From Chitinophagaceae bacterium (GTDB lineage: Bacteria > Bacteroidota > Bacteroidia > Chitinophagales > Chitinophagaceae), in assembly GCA_003136915.1 (NCBI GenBank), contig PLEB01000157.1, positions 1,591 to 11,740 on the forward strand: a DNA stretch of 10,150 nucleotides, in the 5' to 3' direction. A program made the translations under genes and the position numbers. The notes below the pieces were generated by a model. The model was not told the DNA's origin. It did not search any database and worked only from the letters and a program-made list of their open reading frames with translations. Positions 667 to 9,189 of the stretch are shown here, one piece after another. Numbering within the stretch: the stretch's first letter is position 1; each line of letters starts with the position of its first letter.

Positions 667-1155
667 ATGAAAATTTTAATGGTTTGTTTGGGCAATATTT
701 GTCGCAGCCCGCTCGCAGAAGGAATCCTGGAAAATAAAGCTAAAATTGCCGGTCTGAATTGGATGGTCGATAGTGCAGGAACCAATAACGGTTACCATAT
801 AGGCGAACCTCCCCATCCACTTTCCCAGAAAGTGGCCCGGCAGCACAATGTGGATATCAGCACGCAATGTGCACGCGCGTTCGTTCCGGAAGACTTTGAC
901 CGCTTTGATAAGATTTATGCCATGTCATCGGATATTCTTAATGATATCAAAAATATCTCGAGGAAAAAATATAATCCATCCAAGGCCGATCTATTATTGA
1001 ATGAATTGTATCCGGGAGAAAACAGGGATGTGCCCGATCCCTGGTTTGGCGATGAGCCCGGGTTTCACGTGGTTTTTGATATGATTGACAAAGCCTGCGA
1101 CAAGATCATCAAGCATTACCGTCAACCGTCAACCGTCAACCATCAACCTTTATGA
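667..1155 (+). CDS. low-molecular-weight protein tyrosine phosphatase
   Basis: This 162-residue cytoplasmic phosphatase hydrolyses phosphotyrosine through a cysteinyl-phosphate intermediate. The P-loop CLGNICRS is at residues 7-14, with nucleophile C7, a neighbouring C12 and phosphate-binding R13. The general acid is D124 in DPWFG. The length is normal for the family. The open frame continues upstream to an ATG at 595, but the P-loop normally begins within about ten residues of the start, and a -7 element lies at 654-661, so 667 is chosen. The last ten residues (from R152) are encoded by a four-unit heptamer array and look like an added tail. The stop overlaps the hisS start (ATGA at 1152-1155), which suggests translational coupling. 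In many bacteria this family acts on tyrosine kinases of polysaccharide export; nothing here shows the substrate, and the hisS link may be only positional. Confidence 0.93.
   Translation: MKILMVCLGNICRSPLAEGILENKAKIAGLNWMVDSAGTNNGYHIGEPPHPLSQKVARQHNVDISTQCARAFVPEDFDRFDKIYAMSSDILNDIKNISRKKYNPSKADLLLNELYPGENRDVPDPWFGDEPGFHVVFDMIDKACDKIIKHYRQPSTVNHQPL
1121..1148 (+). repeat. heptamer array, (GTCAACC)3 + ATCAACC
   Basis: Four adjacent 7-base units: three identical GTCAACC (1121, 1128, 1135) and one ATCAACC (1142). The array is inside the phosphatase frame, encodes part of R152 to about H159-Q160, and ends three bases before the hisS ATG. Seven is not a multiple of three, so gain or loss of one unit would change the C-terminus and move the stop codon away from the hisS start. 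It is one of six 7-base-period arrays in this window. Confidence 0.9.
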
Positions 1156-2579
1156 CCAGGCCCGGATTACCACAGGGAACCAGGGACTTCGGAGCCGAAA
1201 CCGTTCACAAGCGTGAGTTTATTTTTCATACTATCCGGACTGTTTTTGAATTGTATGGGTATGAACCGCTGGAAACGCCCGCTTTGGAAAACCTGGAGAC
1301 CCTATTGGGTAAATACGGAGAGGAAGGAGATAAACTGCTTTTCAAAATACTCAATAACGGCCTGGATCATTCTTCAAAAAAAGATTCGGCCCTGGCTGAA
1401 TTTGAAAAAATATTAGAGGGGAAAAATAACAGGCAGATCACGGAACGCGCGCTCCGTTATGACCTTACGATTCCATTTGCGCGTTATGTGGCCATGCATC
1501 ATAAGGAAATCAGTTTCCCATTCAAACGTTATCAGATTCAGCCCGTGTGGCGGGCGGACCGGCCCCAGAAAGGCCGCTACCGCGAATTTTATCAATGTGA
1601 TGCCGACGTGGTGGGTAGTCAATCCCTGCTCAATGAAGTGGAGCTGACCCAGATCTATCTGGAAGTTTTTCAACGTTTAGGCATGGACGTGGAACTGCGG
1701 ATCAATCACAGGAAAATCTTGGCCGCACTCGCCAATGCCTGCGGAGGTTCTTCTCAATTGATTTCCATTACGACTGCCATTGACAAACTGGATAAGGTCG
1801 GCCCCGATAAAGTGATCCAGGAACTGAAGGAAAAAAACTTCACCGCAAGTCAGATTTCAATAGTTAAACAGTACCTCGGAATTCAAGGATCGAACCAGGA
1901 GAAACTTGAGCAGCTCGCAAGCATATTACACGCAGGAATGGTAAGCGGATTCAACAATAAAATAACCGGTACCAATCTTCCTGCCCAAAATGATTCTTCT
2001 TTGTTGGAAGGAATCCGTGATACCCGATATCTGCTCGACTTCTTCCCGAATTCAAATAACCTGGTTCTTGATCTTTCTCTTGCCCGCGGATTGAATTATT
2101 ATACCGGGATCATTTTTGAAATTGGGGCCAGGAATATGGAAATCGGAAGCATCGGCGGCGGCGGCAGGTACGACGACCTTACGGGTCTTTTTGGCGTGCC
2201 GAATATCCCGGGCGTGGGCATTTCTTTTGGCGTTGACAGGATCTTTGATGTGATGGAAGAATTGAAATTATTTCCGGATAGCCTGCATCACGCTGCTGAA
2301 TTCCTTTTTTTTAATCTTGGACCCGAATCATTGGCAAAAACCTTTGAACTCATTCAATCGCTCCATAAAGCGGGCGTGCGGTGTGAATTATTTCCTGACC
2401 AGTCCAAATTCGACAAACAGTTTAAATACGCAGAAAAGAAAAGGATCCCCTATGTAGTAATTATCGGATCTGAAGAACTGAAAACCGGCACTGCAAAAAT
2501 CAAAAATCTTTCAACCGGCGTTCAGGAGGAATGTGAATTTGAGGAGGTAGTGAGATATGCTTTGAGAGTGAATCGTTGA
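1152..2579 (+). CDS. hisS: histidyl-tRNA synthetase
   Basis: This class II synthetase charges tRNA-His with histidine using ATP in the cytoplasm. At 475 residues it is slightly longer than the roughly 420-residue bacterial norm. Motif 1 lies in about 20-45 (FELYGYEPLETP). LRYDLTIPFARYVA is at 101-114. Motif 2 is around QPVWRADRPQKGRYREF (130-146). The histidine-specific motifs are LARGLNYYTG (310-319), with N where many family members have D (RGLDYY), and SIGGGGRYDDL (333-343). Motif 3 is GVGISFGVDRI (354-364). From about 380 onward is the alpha/beta anticodon-binding domain. A charged insertion at about 70-98, before RYDLTIP, explains part of the extra length. The start overlaps the phosphatase stop by ATGA and has no Shine-Dalgarno sequence, so translation is probably coupled. 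The stop codon coincides with the first unit of a heptamer array. Identification is secure. Confidence 0.97.
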   Translation: MTRPGLPQGTRDFGAETVHKREFIFHTIRTVFELYGYEPLETPALENLETLLGKYGEEGDKLLFKILNNGLDHSSKKDSALAEFEKILEGKNNRQITERALRYDLTIPFARYVAMHHKEISFPFKRYQIQPVWRADRPQKGRYREFYQCDADVVGSQSLLNEVELTQIYLEVFQRLGMDVELRINHRKILAALANACGGSSQLISITTAIDKLDKVGPDKVIQELKEKNFTASQISIVKQYLGIQGSNQEKLEQLASILHAGMVSGFNNKITGTNLPAQNDSSLLEGIRDTRYLLDFFPNSNNLVLDLSLARGLNYYTGIIFEIGARNMEIGSIGGGGRYDDLTGLFGVPNIPGVGISFGVDRIFDVMEELKLFPDSLHHAAEFLFFNLGPESLAKTFELIQSLHKAGVRCELFPDQSKFDKQFKYAEKKRIPYVVIIGSEELKTGTAKIKNLSTGVQEECEFEEVVRYALRVNR

Positions 2580-2625
2580 GTAGTGAGAGGAGTTATGAGT
2601 TATGAGTTATGGGTTATGAGTGATG
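2577..2625 (+). repeat. heptamer array, unit AGTTATG
   Basis: Seven units of 7 bases run from the hisS stop codon. Two diverged units (TGAGTAG, TGAGAGG) come first, then AGTTATG at 2591, 2598 and 2605, GGTTATG at 2612 and AGTGATG at 2619. The purine-rich strand is the hisS coding strand. An inverted array with the same units lies at 2701-2757, so a transcript running through both could form a long imperfect stem with a loop of about 75-85 bases. The stretch between them (2626-2700) holds no gene that I can support. Confidence 0.88.
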
Positions 2626-2700
2626 AACTTCCGGTGCAAACCTAAGACAGATGCTAACTATCAATTATTTTTAAAAGTAATGAGAACCTGCAGAGCTAAC

Positions 2701-2757
2701 CATAACCCCATAACTCATCACTCATCCCCCATCCCCCATAAATCAAAACTCATAACT
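2701..2757 (-). repeat. inverted heptamer array, unit AGTTATG on the minus strand
   Basis: Read on the minus strand, seven in-phase heptamers run from 2757 to 2709: AGTTATG, AGTTTTG, ATTTATG, GGGGATG twice, AGTGATG and AGTTATG. One 8-base unit (GGGTTATG) follows at 2708-2701. The array overlaps the last codons and the stop (TGA at 2752-2750) of the thiolase gene. It mirrors the array after hisS: AGTGATG (2619) pairs perfectly with CATCACT (2716), and AGTTATG (2591) with CATAACT (2751), while the middle units pair poorly. With its partner it may serve as a two-way transcription end between the convergent genes. That role is inferred, as there is no classical GC stem with a T run. Confidence 0.85.
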
Positions 2758-3946
2758 CTCCTTCAAACACAACCGCCGCTCCTTGTCCCACTCCAACACA
2801 CATAGCTGCGAGTCCATGGCGGACAGTGCGTCTTCTCATCTCATGAAGCAGGGTGGTTGCGATACGAACACCACTGCAGCCGAGGGGATGACCCAGCGCA
2901 ATAGATCCTCCGTTTACATTTATTTTTTGCAGATCCAGGCCCAGATCGTGAATGCAGGCGATGGACTGGGAAGCAAATGCTTCATTTAATTCGATGAGAT
3001 CCATGTCGTTCACAGTGAGACCCGAACGATACAATGCCTTCTGTGTGGCTGGAACAGGACCCATCCCCATGATTGCCGGATCCACGCCGGCGACGCCCAT
3101 GGAAACAACCCGCGCAAGGGGTTGTAAATTATAGTTTGTCACGGCTTCTTCGCTCGCGAGCAACAAAGCAGCCGCACCATCATTCAATCCCGAAGAATTG
3201 CCCGCCGTAACGGTCCCATCTTTCAGGAATGCCGGTCTGAGCCTGCCTAATTTTTCGAGCGAAGTTTCCCTTGGATGCTCGTCTTTTGAAAACCAGGTGA
3301 TCAGTTTGTCCTGCTCGAGTTCCACAGCCACAATCTCGTCATCCCATTTCCCCGCTGCGAGGGCAGCAAAATATTTCAATTGTGATTCGAGCGCAAATTC
3401 ATCCTGAGCGGTCCTGGATATTTTCCAGCGTTGTGCCACATTTTCCGCCGTTTCTCCCATCGAATAAGGATAATAAACATCGGTCATCCTTTTATTCGGG
3501 AACCGCCAGCCGATCGTCGTATCCACCACTTCCAGTTTGCGGCTGTAAGCCTGTCCGGATTTAGCCATCACAAATGGCGCGCGGGACATACTTTCAACAC
3601 CTGCTGCAATATAAAGATCGCCTTCCCCGCACATAATGGCGCGGGAAGCATCCATGACAGCCTGAAGACCTGAAGCACACAAGCGGTTCACGGTATTTCC
3701 GGCAACAGAAACAGGCAATCCGGCCAACAAAACAGCCATACGGGCCACATTGCGATTGTCTTCACCGGCCTGGTTGGCATCTCCAGCAATCACATCTTCA
3801 ATGGCTTCAGGATCAATGGATCCATTCCTGTTCAGCAGTGCGCGGATCACATAAGCCAGCAGGTCGTCCGGCCTCACCGCAGCCAGCGCACCTCCATATT
3901 TTCCGATCGGTGTTCTGACGGCGTCGATGACAAACACTTTTTTCAT
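2750..3946 (-). CDS. thiolase, 3-oxoadipyl-CoA thiolase type
   Basis: At 398 residues this has the normal thiolase length. It carries the complete catalytic set: nucleophile C90 in NRLCASG, NEAF at 321-324, H353 in GHPLG (352-356), and C383 in CVGVGQG. The family cleaves a 3-oxoacyl-CoA with CoA, or condenses two acyl-CoAs, in the cytoplasm. Within the family, NQAGEDNRNVARM (58-70), SMSRAPFVM (119-127) and DTTIGWRFPN (142-151) match the beta-ketoadipyl-CoA thiolases PcaF and PaaJ better than ordinary acetyl-CoA acetyltransferases. They suggest a role in protocatechuate or phenylacetate breakdown. No other pca or paa gene is nearby, so the substrate is an inference, and a general acetyl-CoA acyltransferase remains possible. 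There is no Shine-Dalgarno before the ATG. A one-mismatch -7 element (GATATTTG, minus strand 3974-3967) lies 20 bases upstream. The last codons fall in a heptamer array. Confidence 0.92.
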   Translation of the reverse strand: MKKVFVIDAVRTPIGKYGGALAAVRPDDLLAYVIRALLNRNGSIDPEAIEDVIAGDANQAGEDNRNVARMAVLLAGLPVSVAGNTVNRLCASGLQAVMDASRAIMCGEGDLYIAAGVESMSRAPFVMAKSGQAYSRKLEVVDTTIGWRFPNKRMTDVYYPYSMGETAENVAQRWKISRTAQDEFALESQLKYFAALAAGKWDDEIVAVELEQDKLITWFSKDEHPRETSLEKLGRLRPAFLKDGTVTAGNSSGLNDGAAALLLASEEAVTNYNLQPLARVVSMGVAGVDPAIMGMGPVPATQKALYRSGLTVNDMDLIELNEAFASQSIACIHDLGLDLQKINVNGGSIALGHPLGCSGVRIATTLLHEMRRRTVRHGLAAMCVGVGQGAAVVFEGEL

Positions 3947-4036
3947 GTAAACGGCATAATGAGGGGCAAATATCCATGAATTTTCGCTTTATATCACATG
4001 AACACCTATTATGCCTTCCTCCCCGCAAATACTGAT

Positions 4037-4044
4037 TATCTTTG
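4037..4044 (+). promoter_or_regulatory. -7 promoter element of rlmN
   Basis: TATCTTTG matches TAnnTTTG exactly and ends 7 bases before the ATG at 4052. Transcription would begin near 4048, giving a leader of only about four bases. No TTG is present about 20 bases upstream. The position argues that the in-frame ATG at 3998 is not used, because it would lie upstream of the transcript. Confidence 0.5.
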
Positions 4045-4051
4045 CCGCTTC

Positions 4052-5116
4052 ATGAAAACGGATAAACGCAATATCAGAACGCTCTCCATGGGAGAGATCG
4101 GAGAATATATGGAGGATCTGGGTGAACCGAAGTTCCGCACGGGCCAGGTTTACGAATGGCTCTGGCAAAAGCATGCTTTTCAGTTCGGTGATATGTCTAA
4201 CCTCAGTAAAGAGCTGAGAGCTAAACTATCAGCCGATTTTTCCTTCCCTTCCCTGCAGATCGAATCAACACAACAGAGTTCGGACGGCACCATAAAAAAC
4301 AGGTTTAAAACCTTTGATAATCATTTCGTGGAAGGGGTGCTAATTCCCGCCACCGAAAGGCGGACGGCCTGCGTTTCCTCGCAGATCGGATGTTCCCTCA
4401 GTTGTAAATTCTGCGCAACAGGTTATATGGAAAGGGAAAGGAACCTGGAATTTGATGAAATCTACGATCAGGTTGTGCTTCTTAACCAGCAATCTGAAAA
4501 GATCCATGAAAAAAAATTAAGCAATATTGTTTTTATGGGTATGGGTGAACCCTTACTCAACTATCGGAATGTTCTCAAAGCGATTGAACGGATCACTTCA
4601 GCGGAAGGTCTTGGCATGAGTCCGCGCCGGATTACCGTATCCACCGCCGGTGTTAGCAAAATGATCAGGCAATTGGGTGACGATAAAGTGAAATTCAAAC
4701 TGGCGCTTTCCCTGCACGCTGCCACCGATGCAAAACGACATGAGATCATGCCCATCAACGATAGCAATAATATCCGCTCACTGATTGATGCACTCAATTA
4801 TTTCTATAAACAAACGGGAAATGAAATCACTTTTGAATATATCCTTTTCCAGAATTTTAATGACAGTTTGAAAGACGCAGATGAGCTCGTGAAAATCTTC
4901 CGCCAGGTTCCGGCCGACCTGGTAAATATCATCGAATACAATCCGATAGAGAATGCCGTTTTCTCCAAACCAGACGAACCAACGACCGCGCAGTTCATGA
5001 AGCATCTGGAAAAAAACAAGGTAAATGCCCGCCTTCGCAAAAGCCGCGGAAAAGATATTGATGCAGCTTGCGGGCAATTGGCTAATAAGGTGGGAGAGCG
5101 TTTAAGTGAAAATTAA
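4052..5116 (+). CDS. rlmN: dual-specificity RNA methyltransferase RlmN
   Basis: This radical-SAM enzyme makes 2-methyladenosine at A2503 of 23S rRNA and at A37 of some tRNAs. It is 354 residues long from the ATG at 4052, a usual length. The 4Fe-4S cluster ligands are C114, C118 and C121 in GCSLSCKFCATG. The two catalytic cysteines are C107 (seven before the first ligand, as in the E. coli enzyme) and C340 in RGKDIDAACGQLA, the residue that carries the transferred methylene. GMGEP lies in FMGMGEPLLN, the SAM-binding region. The N-terminal part (FRTGQVYEWLWQK) is the accessory RNA-binding domain. The frame stays open to an ATG at 3998, but those 18 residues are not family-like and the start lies upstream of the predicted promoter element. 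The gene leads a plus-strand block of rRNA-modification genes. A heptamer array starts at its stop codon. Confidence 0.96.
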   Translation: MKTDKRNIRTLSMGEIGEYMEDLGEPKFRTGQVYEWLWQKHAFQFGDMSNLSKELRAKLSADFSFPSLQIESTQQSSDGTIKNRFKTFDNHFVEGVLIPATERRTACVSSQIGCSLSCKFCATGYMERERNLEFDEIYDQVVLLNQQSEKIHEKKLSNIVFMGMGEPLLNYRNVLKAIERITSAEGLGMSPRRITVSTAGVSKMIRQLGDDKVKFKLALSLHAATDAKRHEIMPINDSNNIRSLIDALNYFYKQTGNEITFEYILFQNFNDSLKDADELVKIFRQVPADLVNIIEYNPIENAVFSKPDEPTTAQFMKHLEKNKVNARLRKSRGKDIDAACGQLANKVGERLSEN

Positions 5117-5156
5117 AAAGTAAAAAGTAAAAAGTAAAAATTAAAAAGTAAAAAAA
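5108..5156 (+). repeat. heptamer array, unit AAAAAGT
   Basis: In-phase 7-base units run through the rlmN stop codon: GAAAATT (5108), AAAAAGT at 5115, 5122 and 5129, AAAAATT (5136), AAAAAGT (5143) and an all-A unit (5150). The purine-rich strand is the rlmN coding strand. A 26-base stretch is repeated exactly, in inverted form, within the array at 6931-6958 and its flank, so the two pseudouridine synthase genes sit between inverted copies. The remaining bases to 5213 show no gene and no clear promoter for the next gene. Confidence 0.88.
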
Positions 5157-5213
5157 AGATCCCATAGTGGCTGAAAGTAAAAATGCTCATCAGGATACCT
5201 AGTTGAAAATTCC

Positions 5214-6149
5214 ATGAAAAGAAAGACGGACAATTTTAATAAGTTTTATAACCGCAAGCGCAATAGCGCTGTGAAAGAGGAATTGCGGCAGGAAAAAAAA
5301 ACTGTCAAAAAAGAACGGCAGCAGGCGGTGGACCGTCATTTTGAAGCAAAAAGGAATAAACGCGCTGTTCTTACCGGCGCGCCACAGGTTCATGCCGGCC
5401 CCGAAAATAAAACCACGGCCCCCAAACCACAGGGGAGCATTCCGCTCAACAAATATATTGCCCATGCAGGTGTTAGTTCCAGGCGCAGCGCTGCATTAAT
5501 GGTAAAGGAAGGCAAAGTAACCGTAAATGGGAATGCCGTAACCGATCCCGGGACCAAGGTGTTGTTAACCGACACCGTGAAACTGAACGGAAAAAAGCTC
5601 ACAGTCTCCAGTCATTTCGTTTATATCTTATTAAATAAGCCAAAGGATTTTCTCACGACCACCAGCGATCCGCAGGGCCGGAAAACCGTTCAGCAGCTGA
5701 TCGCCACGGCAACTGACGAACGCGTTTATCCGATCGGCAGGCTGGACCGAAATACTTCGGGAGTGCTATTATTTACCAATGACGGTGACCTTTCGCAAAA
5801 GCTTTCGCATCCTAAAAATGAAGTGAAGAAAATCTATCACGCGGGTTTGGATAAAGCCCTTACAAAAGCAGATTTTGAAAAGATCATCAACGGAATCGAA
5901 CTGGAAGACGGGCTTGCGCGGGTAGATGCCATGGCTTACGCCGACCCGAAAGATAAAACCCAGATCGGTCTCGAGATCCATAGCGGTAAAAACAGGATCG
6001 TAAGAAGAATTTTTGCTGCACTCGGATATGATGTAAAAACACTTGACCGGGTAATGTATGCGGGCCTCACCAAAAAAAATGTGCCCCGGGGTAAATGGCG
6101 CTTTCTCGACGAGAAAGAAATCCGCATACTGAAATACCTGAAATCATGA
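5214..6149 (+). CDS. rluB: RluB/RsuA-family rRNA pseudouridine synthase with basic N-terminal extension
   Basis: This enzyme isomerises a uridine of rRNA to pseudouridine. It has 311 residues in three parts. Residues 1-75 form a Lys/Arg/Gln-rich, low-complexity extension that is probably disordered and RNA-binding. Residues 76-123 are an S4 RNA-binding domain (IPLNKYIAHAGVSSRR, then GKVTVNG). Residues from about 135 on are the catalytic domain, with the nucleophile D178 in GRLDRNTSGVLLFTNDGD and the RsuA/RluB-type segment SDPQGRKTV (151-159). SGKNRIVRRIFAALG is the other conserved RNA-contact stretch. RluB of E. coli modifies U2605 of 23S rRNA; RluE, RluF and RsuA belong to the same family, so the exact target is inferred. 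The gene lies 97 bases after rlmN and 13 bases before a second pseudouridine synthase. The start has no Shine-Dalgarno sequence. Confidence 0.88.
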   Translation: MKRKTDNFNKFYNRKRNSAVKEELRQEKKTVKKERQQAVDRHFEAKRNKRAVLTGAPQVHAGPENKTTAPKPQGSIPLNKYIAHAGVSSRRSAALMVKEGKVTVNGNAVTDPGTKVLLTDTVKLNGKKLTVSSHFVYILLNKPKDFLTTTSDPQGRKTVQQLIATATDERVYPIGRLDRNTSGVLLFTNDGDLSQKLSHPKNEVKKIYHAGLDKALTKADFEKIINGIELEDGLARVDAMAYADPKDKTQIGLEIHSGKNRIVRRIFAALGYDVKTLDRVMYAGLTKKNVPRGKWRFLDEKEIRILKYLKS

Positions 6150-6162
6150 ATCCCTGCCACGC

Positions 6163-6876
6163 ATGAAATTTCCGGAGATCCTGTTTGAGAATGAAGCATT
6201 CATTGTTATCAATAAACCTGCAGGATTATTAAGCGTACCCGACAGGATGCAAACGGCTGTTTCTCTCAAGGACCTGCTCATTGCCCGTTATCAGCACATC
6301 TTTACTGTTCACCGGCTCGACAGGGAAACGAGTGGCGTTATTGTGTTTGCCAAAAAAGCAGAAACGCACCGCTATCTTTCCGGCATTTTTGAACGTCGTG
6401 AGGTGGAAAAAATTTACCTCGGTATCATTTTGGGAAGCATGATCAATCCGTCGGGATTAATTGAAGAGCCTGTTGCCGAACATCCGGCCAAAAATGGAAC
6501 CATGATGGTGCACAGAAAAGGAAAGCCGGCAATCACCGGCTACGAAGTGCTGGAAGACTTCGGAAGATATTCACTGGTTAAATTCAACCTGCTCACCGGC
6601 CGTACACACCAGATCCGTGTTCATATGAAATGGGCAGGCCATCCCATCGCCTGTGACGAATTGTACGGCGATGCCAAACCGGTTTTTGTATCCTCCCTGA
6701 AAAAAAAATATAACCTTTCTAAATCTGCTGAAGAAGAAATGCCCATCCTGGGAAGACTCGGGCTCCATGCAGCCAAACTTTCATTCACTGATGAAAGCGG
6801 TACCGCTTTCAGCTTCGAAGCACCCATGCCAAAAGATCTCCGTGCCTTACTTAGCCAGCTAAGGAAAAATAGTTGA
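6163..6876 (+). CDS. RluA-family pseudouridine synthase without S4 domain
   Basis: This is a 237-residue single-domain pseudouridine synthase of the RluA family. The family motif HRLDRETSG is at 50-58, with catalytic D53. NKPAGLLSVP (17-26) opens the domain, and GRTHQIRVHMKWAGHPI is the conserved C-terminal segment. There is no S4 domain, as in the short RluA/TruC-like members that modify 23S rRNA, tRNA position 32 or tRNA position 65. I cannot choose between these targets from sequence. It starts 13 bases after the RluB-type gene, with no Shine-Dalgarno and no room for a clear promoter, so the two are almost certainly co-transcribed. It ends convergent with the peroxiredoxin gene. Confidence 0.9.
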   Translation: MKFPEILFENEAFIVINKPAGLLSVPDRMQTAVSLKDLLIARYQHIFTVHRLDRETSGVIVFAKKAETHRYLSGIFERREVEKIYLGIILGSMINPSGLIEEPVAEHPAKNGTMMVHRKGKPAITGYEVLEDFGRYSLVKFNLLTGRTHQIRVHMKWAGHPIACDELYGDAKPVFVSSLKKKYNLSKSAEEEMPILGRLGLHAAKLSFTDESGTAFSFEAPMPKDLRALLSQLRKNS

Positions 6877-6930
6877 TGGGTATGGTAAATGCCTCTGCCA
6901 ACCGAAGCGGAACAAAATAATAGGTAATAC

Positions 6931-6958
6931 TATTTTTACTTTTTAATTTTTACTTTTT
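6931..6958 (-). repeat. inverted heptamer array, unit AAAAAGT on the minus strand
   Basis: Read on the minus strand the in-phase units are AAAAAGT (6958-6952), AAAAATT (6951-6945), AAAAAGT (6944-6938) and AAAAATA (6937-6931). This is the same unit and the same order as in the array after rlmN, but inverted. It begins 20 bases beyond the peroxiredoxin stop codon, so its purine-rich strand runs in the direction of that gene. The 102-base gap between the convergent genes holds nothing else I can support. Confidence 0.85.
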
Positions 6959-6978
6959 AATTAAAATAAAATCTGAAT

Positions 6979-7614
6979 TCATTTATTCGGCTGCGGCGTA
7001 TACCTCAGATAGGGCTTCACCACTTTCACTCCTTTCGGAAATTTCTTAATAGCATCTTCCGTAGACACCGCAGGAACCACAATCACATCTTCCCCTTCCT
7101 TCCAGTCTGCTGGCGTTGCCACGCTGTAGTTGGCGGTAAGCTGAAGAGAATCAATTACCCGCAGCACTTCAACGAAATTTCTTCCGGTGGAAGCTGGATA
7201 GGTAATGGTCAGTTTTACCTTTTTGTCCGGCCCAATTACAAATAGAGAGCGGACAGTAAAAGTTTCTGAAGCGTTTGGATGAATCATGCCATAGAGATTA
7301 GCAACGATTCTGTTTTCATCAGCAATGATCGGAAAGTCAACGTTTACTTTTTGGGTTTCATTGATATCTTTTATCCAGCCCAAGTGTTTATCCAAAGGGT
7401 CCACGCTCACGGCGAGTACTTTAACGTTGCGTTTGGCAAATTCATTCTGCAGGGAAGCGGTCTTTCCCAATTCTGTAGTACATACAGGAGTAAAGTCGGC
7501 CGGGTGGGAAAAAAGGACTCCCCATCCATTCCCCAGATATTCGTAAAAATCAATTTCTCCGGCTGTAGTCGTTGCTTTGAAATTGGGCGCAACATCCCCT
7601 AAGCGTAAACTCAT
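6979..7614 (-). CDS. 1-Cys peroxiredoxin (Prx6 type)
   Basis: This 211-residue cytoplasmic thiol peroxidase reduces H2O2 and alkyl hydroperoxides. The peroxidatic cysteine is C45 in HPADFTPVCTTE (37-48), and it is the only cysteine in the protein, so a 1-Cys mechanism with an external thiol reductant follows. The thioredoxin-fold opening GDVAPNFKATTTAGEIDFYEYL, the segment FPIIADENRIVANLYGMIHP, and the C-terminal Prx6 extension (from about 165, with TPADWKEGEDVIV and FPKGVKVVKPYLRYTPQP) fit the Prx6 subfamily. The start has no Shine-Dalgarno. A weak -7 element (TATCTTTA, minus strand 7674-7667; the last base differs from consensus) would give a leader of about 50 bases. The divergent intergenic region carries a palindrome at 7791-7807 that could be an operator. 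The gene stands alone and is probably induced by oxidative stress, which is an inference. Confidence 0.94.
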   Translation of the reverse strand: MSLRLGDVAPNFKATTTAGEIDFYEYLGNGWGVLFSHPADFTPVCTTELGKTASLQNEFAKRNVKVLAVSVDPLDKHLGWIKDINETQKVNVDFPIIADENRIVANLYGMIHPNASETFTVRSLFVIGPDKKVKLTITYPASTGRNFVEVLRVIDSLQLTANYSVATPADWKEGEDVIVVPAVSTEDAIKKFPKGVKVVKPYLRYTPQPNK

Positions 7615-7742
7615 TTTGAACGGTTTTAAAAATTATGAAATATTCCGGCCTACAAAAAACGGACTGTAAAGATATTCATTCTCTATTAAATGAGTAGACT
7701 TTCTGCGAAATTTTACCTTTTTTTATTTCCGTAGTGATTTTC

Positions 7743-7807
7743 TTCAAAAATCCTTGAAAAAGAAAGCGGTACCCCGGTCTACTGCCCACATACTAAATAT
7801 ATTAGTA
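7743..7807. promoter_or_regulatory. dyad symmetries in the divergent promoter region
   Basis: The 278 bases between the two divergent genes hold no open frame of note but two dyads. TACTAA-ATATA-TTAGTA at 7791-7807 is a 17-base inverted repeat with perfect 6-base arms, a typical size for a dimeric repressor site. TTCAA-AAATCC-TTGAA at 7743-7758 has 5-base arms. The first lies 177 bases from the peroxiredoxin start and 86 bases before the start of the 154-residue protein, so either gene could be its target. No exact TAnnTTTG was found for the plus-strand gene. Confidence 0.35.
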
Positions 7808-7892
7808 AATTGCCTTTGCGTTTAAGTTTAATTAGCTCACGGAAGCACACGACGCGCCCTGCTTTAACAGATTAAAAAATTTACTTTAGCCT

Positions 7893-8357
7893 ATGGAATG
7901 GTTCAACACCAGTATTGCACCGCTGAAAGATCTGCTGGCTTTTTTATATAAAAAATCCAAGACCAATGACGTCCATAAAAAGCAGGTTATCATAGAACTC
8001 CGGGATAACCTTAACGTGTTCAAAAATGGATTTATCAATCAGGCACCATACGACCAAATGATCGACCTGTTGAAGAATGATGCCATCCAATCCGCTATTA
8101 AGAGAAATTTTTCTTTTAAAAAATTGAGACCGGGAATCATTAAACCTGATATCATTTATGAGGAAAGAAACAAAAAATATTCAGGATGGTCAGCAGAAAA
8201 ACTCGTGGATAAGATAGATGAAAAGATAGTTGAGCTCAGGAACATAAAAAAAATGAACCGGGACTCTGTGAAAGAAGTAAAAAATAACATCACGCTTATG
8301 ATGAGCAATCTCTATTTCCGCATGAAGCTCCTGGCAGATTTTATCCGTTCGGAATGA
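7893..8357 (+). CDS. hypothetical helical protein, 154 residues
   Basis: I do not recognise this protein. It has no signal peptide, membrane segment, cysteine pair or catalytic motif, and appears soluble and almost entirely helical. The N-terminal half is amphipathic (KKQVIIELRDNLNVFKNGF, about 29-47). A conserved-looking centre, RNKKYSGWSAEKLVDKIDEK (about 92-111), contains Trp in a GWSAEKL turn. The C-terminal part (112-154) is a long Lys/Asn-rich helix that could form a coiled coil. It is lysine-rich (about one residue in six). Sampled lines of the gene are about 27-37% GC, clearly below the neighbouring genes, which suggests a different history. It stands alone, divergent from the peroxiredoxin gene and convergent with the oxidoreductase. 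The first ATG is the only sensible start. The coding call is supported by the long open frame and the absence of a competing frame; the function is unknown. Confidence 0.75.
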   Translation: MEWFNTSIAPLKDLLAFLYKKSKTNDVHKKQVIIELRDNLNVFKNGFINQAPYDQMIDLLKNDAIQSAIKRNFSFKKLRPGIIKPDIIYEERNKKYSGWSAEKLVDKIDEKIVELRNIKKMNRDSVKEVKNNITLMMSNLYFRMKLLADFIRSE

Positions 8358-8407
8358 TTATTTTTTGATTGCACAATTGTCAGATGGACAAACCGGCAAC
8401 GAATTAA

Positions 8408-9055
8408 TTATTTCATCAGTAGTTTAAAAGCATGCGTCCATTGATTTCTCAGAAATCCCGGTATGCACCAGAGAATGCAAAGTGGTTCGATGGCGCGGGC
8501 CCCTTCTGCCGTTCCCATATCTTCTGTATCCCAGCCAAAGCTGGTCAGGATCTCGGTCACCTGCTTTTTTGCATTTGCATCATTCCCACAAATAAACATA
8601 GTAGGTATTCCTTCTGTAAAAGTGGGCTTATACATCAGGGAGCTTCCAACACTGTTAAACGCTTTCACAAAATGCGCAGCAGGAAACTGACGCTGAAGTT
8701 CTTCCATCATTGATTCATCCAGCGTAGTTGTCAATTTCAGTACGCCTTTTTCAGGTGGTGCCGGTGCGATGGGATTGGTCACATCAATAATGGTTTTCCC
8801 TGCCAGATTTTTAGACCCTGCCAGCATAAGCGCTTGTTCGGCCGCAATTCCGGCAACAGCCAACACGAGCAATTCACCAAATGATGCAGCTTCCTGGAAA
8901 GTGCCCGTCTTAGCATTCGCATTTTCAGATTTCCATTTAACTACAGATTCCTTTGACGGATCACGTGTTCCCAACAACACCGCATGACCCTCTGCCAAAA
9001 AACCTTTTCCCAAAACCTGACCCACTTCCCCGGACCCAATAATTCCGATTTTCAT
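8408..9055 (-). CDS. NADP-binding oxidoreductase, F420-reductase fold
   Basis: This 215-residue cytoplasmic protein opens with a Rossmann nucleotide-binding motif, IGIIGSGEVGQVLGKGF (about 3-19; glycines at 7, 9 and 12). LGTRDP (28-33) follows, where T30 and R31 are placed to hold the 2'-phosphate of NADP. DVTNPI (91-96) and KAFNSVGSSLMYKP (131-144) are typical of the family of NADPH-dependent F420 reductases and their STEAP-like relatives. Annotation pipelines usually call this family coenzyme F420-dependent NADP oxidoreductase. I would not infer F420 itself, since most Bacteroidota are not known to make it; the real electron partner is unknown. The start at 9055 gives the Rossmann strand at residue 3, the normal spacing. 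No promoter or Shine-Dalgarno is evident, and a 15-unit heptamer array begins 30 bases upstream. Confidence 0.88.
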   Translation of the reverse strand: MKIGIIGSGEVGQVLGKGFLAEGHAVLLGTRDPSKESVVKWKSENANAKTGTFQEAASFGELLVLAVAGIAAEQALMLAGSKNLAGKTIIDVTNPIAPAPPEKGVLKLTTTLDESMMEELQRQFPAAHFVKAFNSVGSSLMYKPTFTEGIPTMFICGNDANAKKQVTEILTSFGWDTEDMGTAEGARAIEPLCILWCIPGFLRNQWTHAFKLLMK

Positions 9056-9084
9056 ATAAAAAGTTTTTGTTTTGCGAACTCCGG

Positions 9085-9189
9085 TTTCTCAACTCTTCTT
9101 TCCCGACTCTCCAGCCTAAACGCTCTGTGGTCAACTTTCCATTGCCGTCTGTCATTTCTCCATTCTACTTTCTCGTTTCTCAATTTACC
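9085..9189 (+). repeat. degenerate heptamer array, 15 units, WYTCTCN
   Basis: Cutting this stretch every 7 bases gives fifteen units in constant phase. TTTCTCN recurs at 9085, 9155, 9169 and 9176, TTTCCCG is at 9099, and ACTCTTC, ACTCTCC and ACTTTCC are at 9092, 9106 and 9134. Position 3 is T in 12 of 15 units and position 6 is C in 11 of 15. The middle units (9113-9133) are the most diverged. The array fills most of the 190-base gap between the divergent oxidoreductase and ruvB genes and is pyrimidine-rich on the plus strand. It has no coding potential I can support. Confidence 0.75.

Follow-up and report, generated by a model that had tools for sequence, protein, structure and literature searches.

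Why do short repeats of one period but different units recur at the gene ends of a single locus? The window, a stretch of 10,150 nucleotides from a Chitinophagaceae bacterium (GCA_003136915.1, contig PLEB01000157.1; here G000), was said in a preliminary description to carry six separate arrays with a period of exactly 7 bases, four of them at or in stop codons, and the shared period was attributed to a mechanism that counts length. We followed the arrays through the rest of the genome and compared them in detail with the congeners G003, G006, and G008 (completeness 99% for G008 and 80%–86% for the other genomes, including G000).

Heptad arrays in the window

The period of 7 is clear in five of the six arrays. 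TRF called 1118–1148, 2590–2626, 2697–2758, 5104–5154, and 6933–6959 at period 7 (the last also as 6932–6962 at period 14), and a lag test of the window over periods 2–30 returned the same five at period 7 and its multiples 14, 21, and 28 only, with a mean of 0.0 in 20 Markov-1 shuffles. Additional TRF rows are a short period-7 array inside hisS (2494–2508, 2.1 copies), 3699–3747 (period 21), and 8211–8233 (period 12). Because of their A/T-rich composition, 6931–6958 and 5108–5156 have local z values of only 1.5 and 2.4; both methods nonetheless call them. The sixth array, 9085–9189, was called by neither TRF nor the lag test. It is a degenerate, decayed heptad tract with weak signals at lags 7, 14, and 21 (z 3.2, 3.8, and 2.9; 5.3, 5.7, and 3.3 in the stronger orthologous gap of G006), kept in G006 with other letters and missing in G008. 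The features of the window are:

1118–1148, plus strand: solo heptad array ACCGTCA (4.4 copies), in frame within the final codons of the phosphatase ORF; TRF and lag test
2577–2626, plus strand: left hairpin arm of GAGTTAT heptads, decayed between the hisS stop codon and 2590 and clear thereafter
2627–2700, plus strand: type-B core, a dispersed repeat, between the inverted arms 2577–2626 and 2701–2757
2701–2757, minus strand: right, inverted hairpin arm, holding the thiolase stop codon (2750–2752, minus strand)
5104–5154, plus strand: solo heptad array AAAAAGT/AAAAATT, holding the rlmN stop codon (5114–5116); TRF
6932–6962, plus strand: solo heptad array TTTTTAC/TTTTTAA between convergent genes; TRF
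9085–9189, strand not given: decayed heptad tract in a divergent gap; lag signal

Two of the supposedly separate arrays, 2577–2626 and 2701–2757, form the arms of a single inverted-repeat element with a core of ~75 nt between them; they pair imperfectly, with a best matching stretch of ~19 nt. Inverted pairing, cores, and arm matching went unnoticed in the preliminary description. The proposed association with stop codons stands for thiolase and rlmN, whose stops lie inside arrays, and fails for the phosphatase, where the array is a coding tail ending 4 nt ahead of the stop (1153–1155, overlapping the hisS start). For hisS (stop 2577–2579) it depends on counting the decayed heptads, as the clear array begins 10 nt past the stop, and the array placed 20 bases past the peroxiredoxin stop lies 16–20 nt from it, according to the array end chosen. 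The arrays also differ between relatives. The phosphatase-end array has a 27-bp counterpart in a relative (L009:9971–9997) and is absent from G008 and G003, and the position of 6932–6962 is occupied in G006 by a small unrelated hairpin. The expected variation in repeat length is seen between relatives in the rlmN–rluB gap, where the array measures 46 bp in G000 and 27 bp in G006 and no array is called in G008 and G003.

Periods and gene-end placement across genomes

For the wider genome, 60 contigs of G000 (391,640 bp in total) were taken by number, in fives from C5–C100, C205–C305, and C310–C410, two of them trimmed to 20 kb; C255 and C325, already fetched for repeat hits, were omitted, and AACTCAT-type arrays are therefore under-counted. 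This sample holds 20 arrays of period 7 and 17 of period 8, at most two of any other period from 2 to 30, and none in a single Markov-3 control; the step is therefore 7 or 8. The excess of period 7 over periods 6 and 9 holds both here (20 vs. 1 and 0) and in 80 loci of relatives (51 vs. 0 and 3, with 23 of period 8), but over period 8 it is not clear in the G000 sample; the relatives and G008 (13 vs. 4) do show it. Bulk intergenic autocorrelation gave no marked peak at lag 7 (z 1.4 in G000, 1.2 in G008, and 2.7 in the relatives). Counting by an enzyme or protein in fixed 7-base steps could account for period 7 being the commonest and for the many units found across species (55 canonical units among the period-7 to period-9 arrays of the 80 loci). 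Yet period 8 nearly equals period 7 in G000, so nothing counts exactly seven; the words are family-specific, the units within this genome forming a few dispersed families rather than an arbitrary set; and one orthologous gap (L216:6448) carries octads in G008 and heptads in G006. We consider such a counter very improbable.

Enrichment near stop codons is modest. In the 60 contigs and the window's own contig, which together served for the stop-distance and gene-orientation counts, 23 of 44 arrays lie within 30 bp of a stop codon (16.1 expected, P = 0.027), and the effect is weaker in G008 (11 of 20 vs. 7.2, P = 0.07). Gene orientation was counted for the hairpins described below. Both flanks could be assigned for 16 of 45 elements with a shared palindromic core (type A), giving 10 convergent, five tandem, and one divergent gap; G008 hairpins with a spacer of at least 15 nt comprise nine tandem, four convergent, and no divergent cases, divergent gaps making up 30% of gap bases; and the hairpins of G000 are tandem (n = 3), divergent (n = 1), within an ORF (n = 1), or at contig ends (n = 3). 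These are dispersed intergenic palindromes with a bias to gene 3' ends.

Hairpin elements with matched arms

Often, the short 7- and 8-letter repeats at gene ends form the arms of hairpin elements, built as a word array, an internal loop, a core, and an inverted word array; other arrays stand alone. Hairpins contain 16 of the 41 period-7 and period-8 arrays in the G000 sample and just 16 of 91 in the relatives, and 80 contigs of G000 (20 of them picked by repeat hits) yielded 27 inverted-pair rows and 51 unpaired arrays. In 18 G008 stretches, eight of the 18 hairpins have perfect word arms of 23–32 bp, several with a mirrored odd word, and two of these fold into a stem of 30 or 32 bp with a 6 × 6 internal loop and a 5-bp tip. 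An assembly artefact was considered and rejected: hairpins also occur inside long G008 contigs, though many arrays of G000 are located at the ends of contigs or next to N joins. Plain slippage repeats forming no element, the pairs being two neighboring neutral arrays, would agree with the abundance of solo arrays, their variable length, and the general heptamer excess in bacteria, which has been published together with a polymerase-footprint explanation (Mrazek 2007, as cited in PMC4679880 and PMC4692102). This very unlikely reading is already disfavored by the shared cores, the mirrored arms, the perfect stems of up to 32 bp, and Markov-3 controls that yield 0 or 1 hairpins.

The type-A core occurs at 14 places in G000, 27 in G006, and 29 in G008, compared to 0–2 in 30 other congeners and 0–2 for a reversed-pattern control. 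Type B, the element with a core of ~75 nt at the hisS–thiolase junction of the window (query 2622–2702), is found beside heptad words at five places in G000 and four in G006, and in none of the 31 other congeners searched; a further G000 copy (L096:290–371) is 76% identical. Such a distribution, with the type-B core at multiple sites only in G000 and G006 and in one case seemingly nested in type-A words, agrees with REP- or MITE-like miniature palindromes moved by a transposase in trans, the word arrays being mere termini. A Y1 transposase (PF01797, E 0.001) was found in none of the four genomes (5 of 14 control genomes were positive), leading us to reject RAYT/REPIN membership, and the elements lie at the same places across the clade in the nine junctions compared. 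We consider transposition of this kind rather unlikely.

Arm matching was assessed in type-A elements from 46 of 70 sites (19 of 29 in G008, 22 of 27 in G006, and 5 of 14 in G000), of which one chance site in a gene (L250) was removed, leaving 45, and six with arms out of register, leaving 39. In these 39 gap-free elements, 75 cells show changes on both sides, compared to 31.9 ± 5.2 after shuffling (0 of 500 shuffles as high) and 8–21 cells in slid controls, and 14 of 23 arm pairs have such changes. Within-element arm identity is 87.4%, exceeding the mean (80.7%) and the maximum (85.3%) of 20,000 within-genome shuffles (39 of the 45 elements). The arms of the shared-core elements co-vary, with a figure inflated by the common ancestry of the elements, and the mirrored changes are seen as covariation between elements, not as single events. 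Two of the arm pairs, columns 22–53 and 1–74, are base-paired in no more than roughly half or three fifths of the elements. No both-side changes fall in the tip helix, a result that selecting elements by that palindrome would also give. Octad arms share letters as well (28 rows, one right arm serving two rows in two cases; 41 matches vs. a shuffled-pair mean of 26.6 and maximum of 38); a mirrored word order was rejected, as it does not go beyond composition (order-shuffle mean 38.6, maximum 44).

Covariation could also be ordinary compensatory evolution of selected RNA hairpins, acting as bidirectional terminators or stabilizers of mRNA 3' ends. The gene-end bias, the mostly convergent or tandem flanks, and the persistence at orthologous junctions all suit this explanation. 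Against it, G–U mismatches do not exceed the opposite transition (A–C) in transcript orientation (11 vs. 14 in a small set of 25 informative mismatches), as expected if arm matching arises at the DNA level; G003 lacks an element at the hisS–thiolase and ruvB junctions; and an Rfam search of the window at gathering thresholds found no RNA family. We consider RNA selection rather unlikely as the source of the matching.

Orthologous junctions, some on loci picked for their element content (L092, L096, and L216), show how the elements change. All nine junctions comparable in at least two of G000, G006, and G008 carry a hairpin or facing words in both. At L216:15391, GTTGAC words in G008 correspond to ATGGTNN words in G006 and G000, each palindromic (28/33, 29/30, and 28/31, respectively); the hisS–thiolase junction has type A in G008 and type B in G000; and at L092 site 2 a type-B core appears nested inside remaining outer ATGGT-type words. 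Replacement of words is not universal, the arms at L350:10137 being 21/22 to 33/34 alike across the three genomes. Where letters, words, or core have been replaced at the junctions compared, a hairpin usually persists all the same.

Possible origin and relation to known repeats

The window may be a sample of clade-wide intergenic repeats built of 7- or 8-nt words, solo or as hairpin arms. We regard it as somewhat probable that slippage makes the words and that DNA-level fold-back template switching maintains the match between arms. Replication slippage would create the words and alter their number; counted in its favor are the length change of the rlmN array and 4 of the 80 relative loci in which a hisS frame interrupted by no stop holds heptamer arrays of several units. 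Where inverted arrays face each other, the strand could fold back during replication and one arm template the repair or synthesis of the other, so that under quasipalindrome template switching the arms would stay alike through drift or replacement of their sequence. Template switching by itself does not explain how a conserved core reaches many sites; ectopic recombination between arms, or insertion into hairpins already in place, may carry cores from one existing element to another. Any role they have, e.g. as a putative terminator between genes, would be secondary. Counted against template switching are the retained words at L350:10137 and the many unpaired arrays (51 vs. 27 pair rows). A bolder version, which we hold only tentatively, is that ongoing fold-back synthesis itself writes inverted 7- and 8-nt arrays at gene ends, with the site and the palindrome inherited and the two arms rewritten in concert, at some sites including the word family.

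Loss of the palindrome nuclease SbcD was rejected as the cause of the expansion in this clade: only 2 of the 33 congeners pass the cut-off of its model and 14 give weaker matches, but 6 of 14 control genomes fall short as well, and G003, which lacks the expansion, is also without a match. The absence of SbcD may be permissive and not specific to the expansion.

Several published repeats share features with these elements. For the GGGAATC heptamer arrays of Xanthomonas, the section devoted to them in PMC4692102 describes an excess, inverted pairs, and gene-end placement; as here, each heptad combines a fixed with a varying part, and the arrays are intergenic, occur in inverted pairs (70 and 75 in Xanthomonas), lie close after the upstream ORF (28 nt on average in Xanthomonas), and are few between divergent genes (8% and 7%); prominent repeat lengths are likewise not common to both species. 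Unlike here, the words are G-rich quadruplex words in another phylum, and that section mentions no shared core, arm covariation, or octads. The TAACTGA repeats of Beggiatoaceae, Cyanobacteria, and some Bacteroidetes are also 7-nt intergenic direct repeats, accompanied by other heptamer direct repeats in G. forsetii and A. sublithincola, but, in the parts of PMC4679880 that treat them, they have a single unit, lie mostly just upstream of start codons in the main genome, and include one indirect repeat only. REP/REPIN sequences resemble our elements in being palindromes dispersed near 3' ends, for the most part where the flanking genes are convergent or unidirectional, and the CGTC REPs, which occur in Bacteroidetes among other phyla, are described in the relevant part of PMC3733652 as being without a known transposase. 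In contrast to RAYT-associated REP/REPIN, the elements here have word-array arms with variable words and no Y1/RAYT gene in the four genomes; judged by eye, no constant end tag such as GTAG or CGTC was noticed, CGTC being part of a repeated arm word that reads CATC there in many elements. Finally, quasipalindrome template switching homogenizes the arms of inverted repeats and is able to generate perfect stems and preserve them (PMC8604942, PMC8794818); changes in one arm here are likewise matched in the other, while the titles and abstract openings of these papers mention no bacterial families of word-array hairpins. No report of these elements in Chitinophagaceae appeared among the matches listed from the open-licence literature.

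The elements join two subjects that are usually kept apart, the unexplained bacterial excess of 7-nt repeats and dispersed palindromes. If they are indeed self-templating, the 7–8 nt step would be a property of the copying machinery. Junctions that keep the palindrome with different words provide a natural test bed for whether DNA-level template switching or RNA selection maintains the hairpins.

Period-7 and period-8 word arrays

The gene content of the window (G000:C46:1591-11740) is ordinary, comprising an LMW phosphatase, HisS, a thiolase, RlmN, two pseudouridine synthases, a peroxiredoxin, an ORF without Pfam match, an F420-type oxidoreductase, and RuvB. Its genome of origin (G000) consists of 3.06 Mb in 464 contigs and is 80% complete; among the 80 relative loci kept, the nearest by HisS is L009, from a Chitinophagaceae MAG (82% identity). 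A preliminary description had noted six period-7 arrays of different units at gene ends and proposed a mechanism that counts length. The period is borne out, with five period-7 arrays identified by TRF, a concurring lag test, and no further periods in the window among those scanned by this test (2 to 30), except multiples of 7. The sixth array (9085-9189) is a heptad tract, but decayed and with a weak lag signal (z = 3.2, 3.8, and 2.9 at lags 7, 14, and 21). The counterpart of this gap in the congener G006 gives z = 5.3, 5.7, and 3.3 at the same lags, and the tract is absent from the congener G008.

Period 7 was the commonest in all samples, but period 8 was also favored. In 60 G000 contigs picked by their number, 391,640 bp in all, 20 arrays had period 7 and 17 period 8, with at most two for any other period from 2 to 30 and none in a Markov-3 control. 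The 80 relative loci that carry HisS (1,401,055 bp in total) contained 51 arrays of period 7, 23 of period 8, 11 of period 21, and at most six of any remaining period (control total, 6), and 18 stretches of G008 (245,390 bp, including the 2,484-bp, all-N L211) contained 13, 4, and at most two for periods 7, 8, and any other, respectively. The preferred step is thus 7 or 8, and the length-counting idea finds only partial support. The lag-7 signal is weak across bulk intergenic sequence, and the arrays of these 7- or 8-nt words are discrete objects. In G000, they are often found at contig ends or N joins (e.g. L110:1-23, L143:1-21, and L151:5489-5595), and for 14 of 44 non-coding arrays, one flank lacks a called ORF; the assembly therefore seems to break there, and the counts are probably too low.

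The placement near stop codons was supported in part. With genes from a simple ORF caller, 23 of 44 arrays in the 60 contigs plus the window's contig have a stop no more than 30 bp away (16.1 expected, P = 0.027), and G008 points in the same direction, but at P = 0.07 (11/20, 7.2 expected). Arrays near starts numbered 16 in G000 (16.9 expected) and 2 in G008 (7.8 expected, P = 0.003), and a further three and four arrays, respectively, lie inside called ORFs.

Hairpin elements and their arms

Two arrays of the window, 2577-2626 and 2701-2757, form an imperfect inverted pair with a best matching run of about 19 nt. In 80 own contigs, 20 of them selected by repeat hits, we found 27 rows of inverted-array pairs within 200 bp (one array can occur in several rows) and 51 unpaired arrays. 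Hairpins scoring at least 16 numbered 13 in the 60 G000 contigs, 17 in G008, and 40 in relatives, of which 10, 8, and 12 had arms with period 7 or 8 according to the array caller; Markov controls yielded none. These hairpins contain 16 of 41, 13 of 24, and 16 of 91 period-7/8 arrays, respectively. At a lower score of 14, 8 of 18 G008 hairpins carry word arms of 23-32 bp that match perfectly. Folding of two of them gave a stem of 30 or 32 bp, followed by a 6x6 internal loop and a tip of 5 bp. An 18-bp stem, AAAACAACAGGTATTAAA, is common to L119:1759-1807 (G000) and L202:18840-18888 (G008), with differing loops. In Chitinophaga terrae, L079:11362-11557 is a 50-nt near-perfect inverted repeat with a 96-nt centre, whose GCAAAG words resemble period-8 arrays elsewhere in L079.

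Elements consisting of a word array, a core, and an inverted word array include two types:
Type A: words GGTTGAC or ATGGTNN, palindromic core near AGGTGCGAATTCGCACCT
Type B: words GAGTTATG, the window's 75-nt core

The type-A core (up to three mismatches) occurs at 14 sites in G000, 27 in G006, and 29 in G008, vs. 0-2 in 30 other congeners and likewise 0-2 for a reversed-pattern control. Where both flanking genes were assignable (16 of 45 elements), 10 pairs are convergent, five tandem, and one divergent. The type-B core is present at five places in G000 and four in G006 (a fifth row, overlapping one place on the opposite strand, was left out), with an additional G000 copy found by BLAST in L096 and no copies among the 31 other congeners searched. 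Type-B copies are flanked by words wherever their sides are visible, except in L281, cut by the contig start, and L284, where only part of the core is present and a right arm is not evident.

Counted as overlapping 22-mers on both strands, three copies of the octad AATGTGNN (up to two mismatches) gave 114+112 matches in G000, 181+138 in G006, 187+184 in G008, and 0+1 in the congener G003 (controls 20+10, 14+11, 9+13, and 0+0). At one mismatch or fewer, 11 of 148 genomes of the phylum, G000 among them, have any match. Apart from G000, the highest count (16+14, control 0) is in G178, a distant genome from another family of the same class, which would represent either an independent or a transferred expansion. 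AAAAAGT-type words more often form solo arrays, without an inverted partner.

The arms of type-A elements match each other beyond their genome background. We examined 46 of 70 palindrome sites, dropped one chance match in a gene (L250), leaving 45, and six elements with arms out of register. In the remaining 39, arm identity was 87.4%, vs. a mean of 80.7% and a maximum of 85.3% in 20,000 shuffles within genomes. In the gap-free alignment A1, 88.9% of cells are paired (shuffled, 83.7%), with 75 both-side changes (shuffled, 31.9 +/- 5.2) in 14 of 23 arm pairs, and sliding reduced pairing to 23-49%; the tip helix, by whose palindrome the sites had been selected, shows zero both-side changes. As kinship among elements inflates these counts, we consider the co-variation strong, not absolute. 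In 28 octad rows, variable dinucleotides agree between arms in 41 of 81 cases, vs. an average of 26.6 for shuffled pairs (maximum 38, 5000 shuffles), and this agreement is within composition expectation (mean 38.6, maximum 44).

For 21 of the 45 type-A elements, orientation could be assigned from one incoming gene (L242 contributes no positions). Their mismatches comprise 11 G-U and 14 A-C transition mismatches and 29 others, so this small sample gives no indication of tolerance at the RNA level. SbcD (TIGR00619) scores above cut-off in just 2 of 33 genomes of the genus, which may make it tolerant of long palindromes.

Word replacement at orthologous junctions

G006, G008, and G003 (RlmN identities to the window of 92%, 88%, and 85%) are syntenic with most of the window's contig, L107. 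At the hisS-thiolase junction, before which the G006 contig stops, G000 has type B, G008 has a type-A hairpin that is perfect, and G003 has nothing. After ruvB, G006 and G008 have type A, with arms matching at 30/32 and 31/32 positions within genomes and 24/29 and 26/29 between them, and no element was seen by eye in G003; in G000, an 86-base N run from L107:11741, just past the window and inside ruvB, falls near this site.

Of the contigs used for further junctions, L092, L096, and L216 were chosen as element-bearing. At L092 site 1, G000 has type B and G006 ATGGT-type words on both sides with no hairpin called; at site 2, type B lies within remaining outer ATGGT words in G000, and G006 has a shorter A-type hairpin. 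Type B with adjoining GTTGAC words in L096 (G000) corresponds to a perfect hairpin at L216:1401 (G008). L216:15391 is palindromic in all three genomes, with GTTGAC words in G008 and ATGGTNN words in G006 and G000. Both genomes compared at L216:13465 have hairpins (28/29 and 31/38), L216:10938 is a hairpin in G008 and ATGGT words on both sides, with no hairpin called, in G006, and arms at L350:10137 are nearly identical across all three genomes. By this comparison, all nine junctions retain words or a hairpin, with words or core replaced at some and retained at others. Solo arrays are less conserved: those at rlmN-rluB and in the gap after L107:15954 occur in G000 and G006 only, and that at thiolase-rlmN in G008 only. 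In the gap at L216:6448, the words are octads in G008 but AAAAAGT heptads in G006. A two-gene segment, L092:5974-8476, encoding one MacB/FtsX-like permease, is flanked by type B in G000 and matched in G006; it is missing at the G008 junction, which has one element-like sequence instead, possibly through recombination between elements.

Known systems and the origin of words

The Xanthomonas GGGAATC arrays resemble those described here in their heptads, inverted pairing, position at gene ends, and turnover, as far as excerpts of that report describe them (PMC4692102), and REPs do so in their dispersal and placement (excerpts of PMC3733652). Unlike for REPs, the four genomes searched yielded no Y1 transposase. 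Arm homogenisation through template switching is likewise published, according to parts of PMC8604942 and PMC8794818. No report of word-array hairpins with shared cores, co-varying arms, and words replaceable at fixed sites was found among the best-ranked literature matches listed.

Heptamer arrays (lag score at least 14) also occur within the open hisS frame in 4 of 80 relative loci, sharing one variable linker before LARGLNYYTG:
L034:2717-2744
L038:2964-2998
L042:1334-1362
L061:10846-10897
Their units are CACCACG, GACTTTC, TCACCAT, and CTCCCGG, of which the similar CACCACG and TCACCAT may be related; in L042, the frame contains another array at a different position. Their position at one tolerant site fits local slippage and no regulatory role. 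In three further relatives (L065:2997-3055, L088:8888-8987, and L028:11405-11446), a heptad array or hairpin of other words begins at the hisS match or no more than about 40 nt beyond it, like those of the window and L009.

Words would arise by slippage, and fold-back templating would keep the hairpin arms matched. This account explains the arrays and hairpins best.
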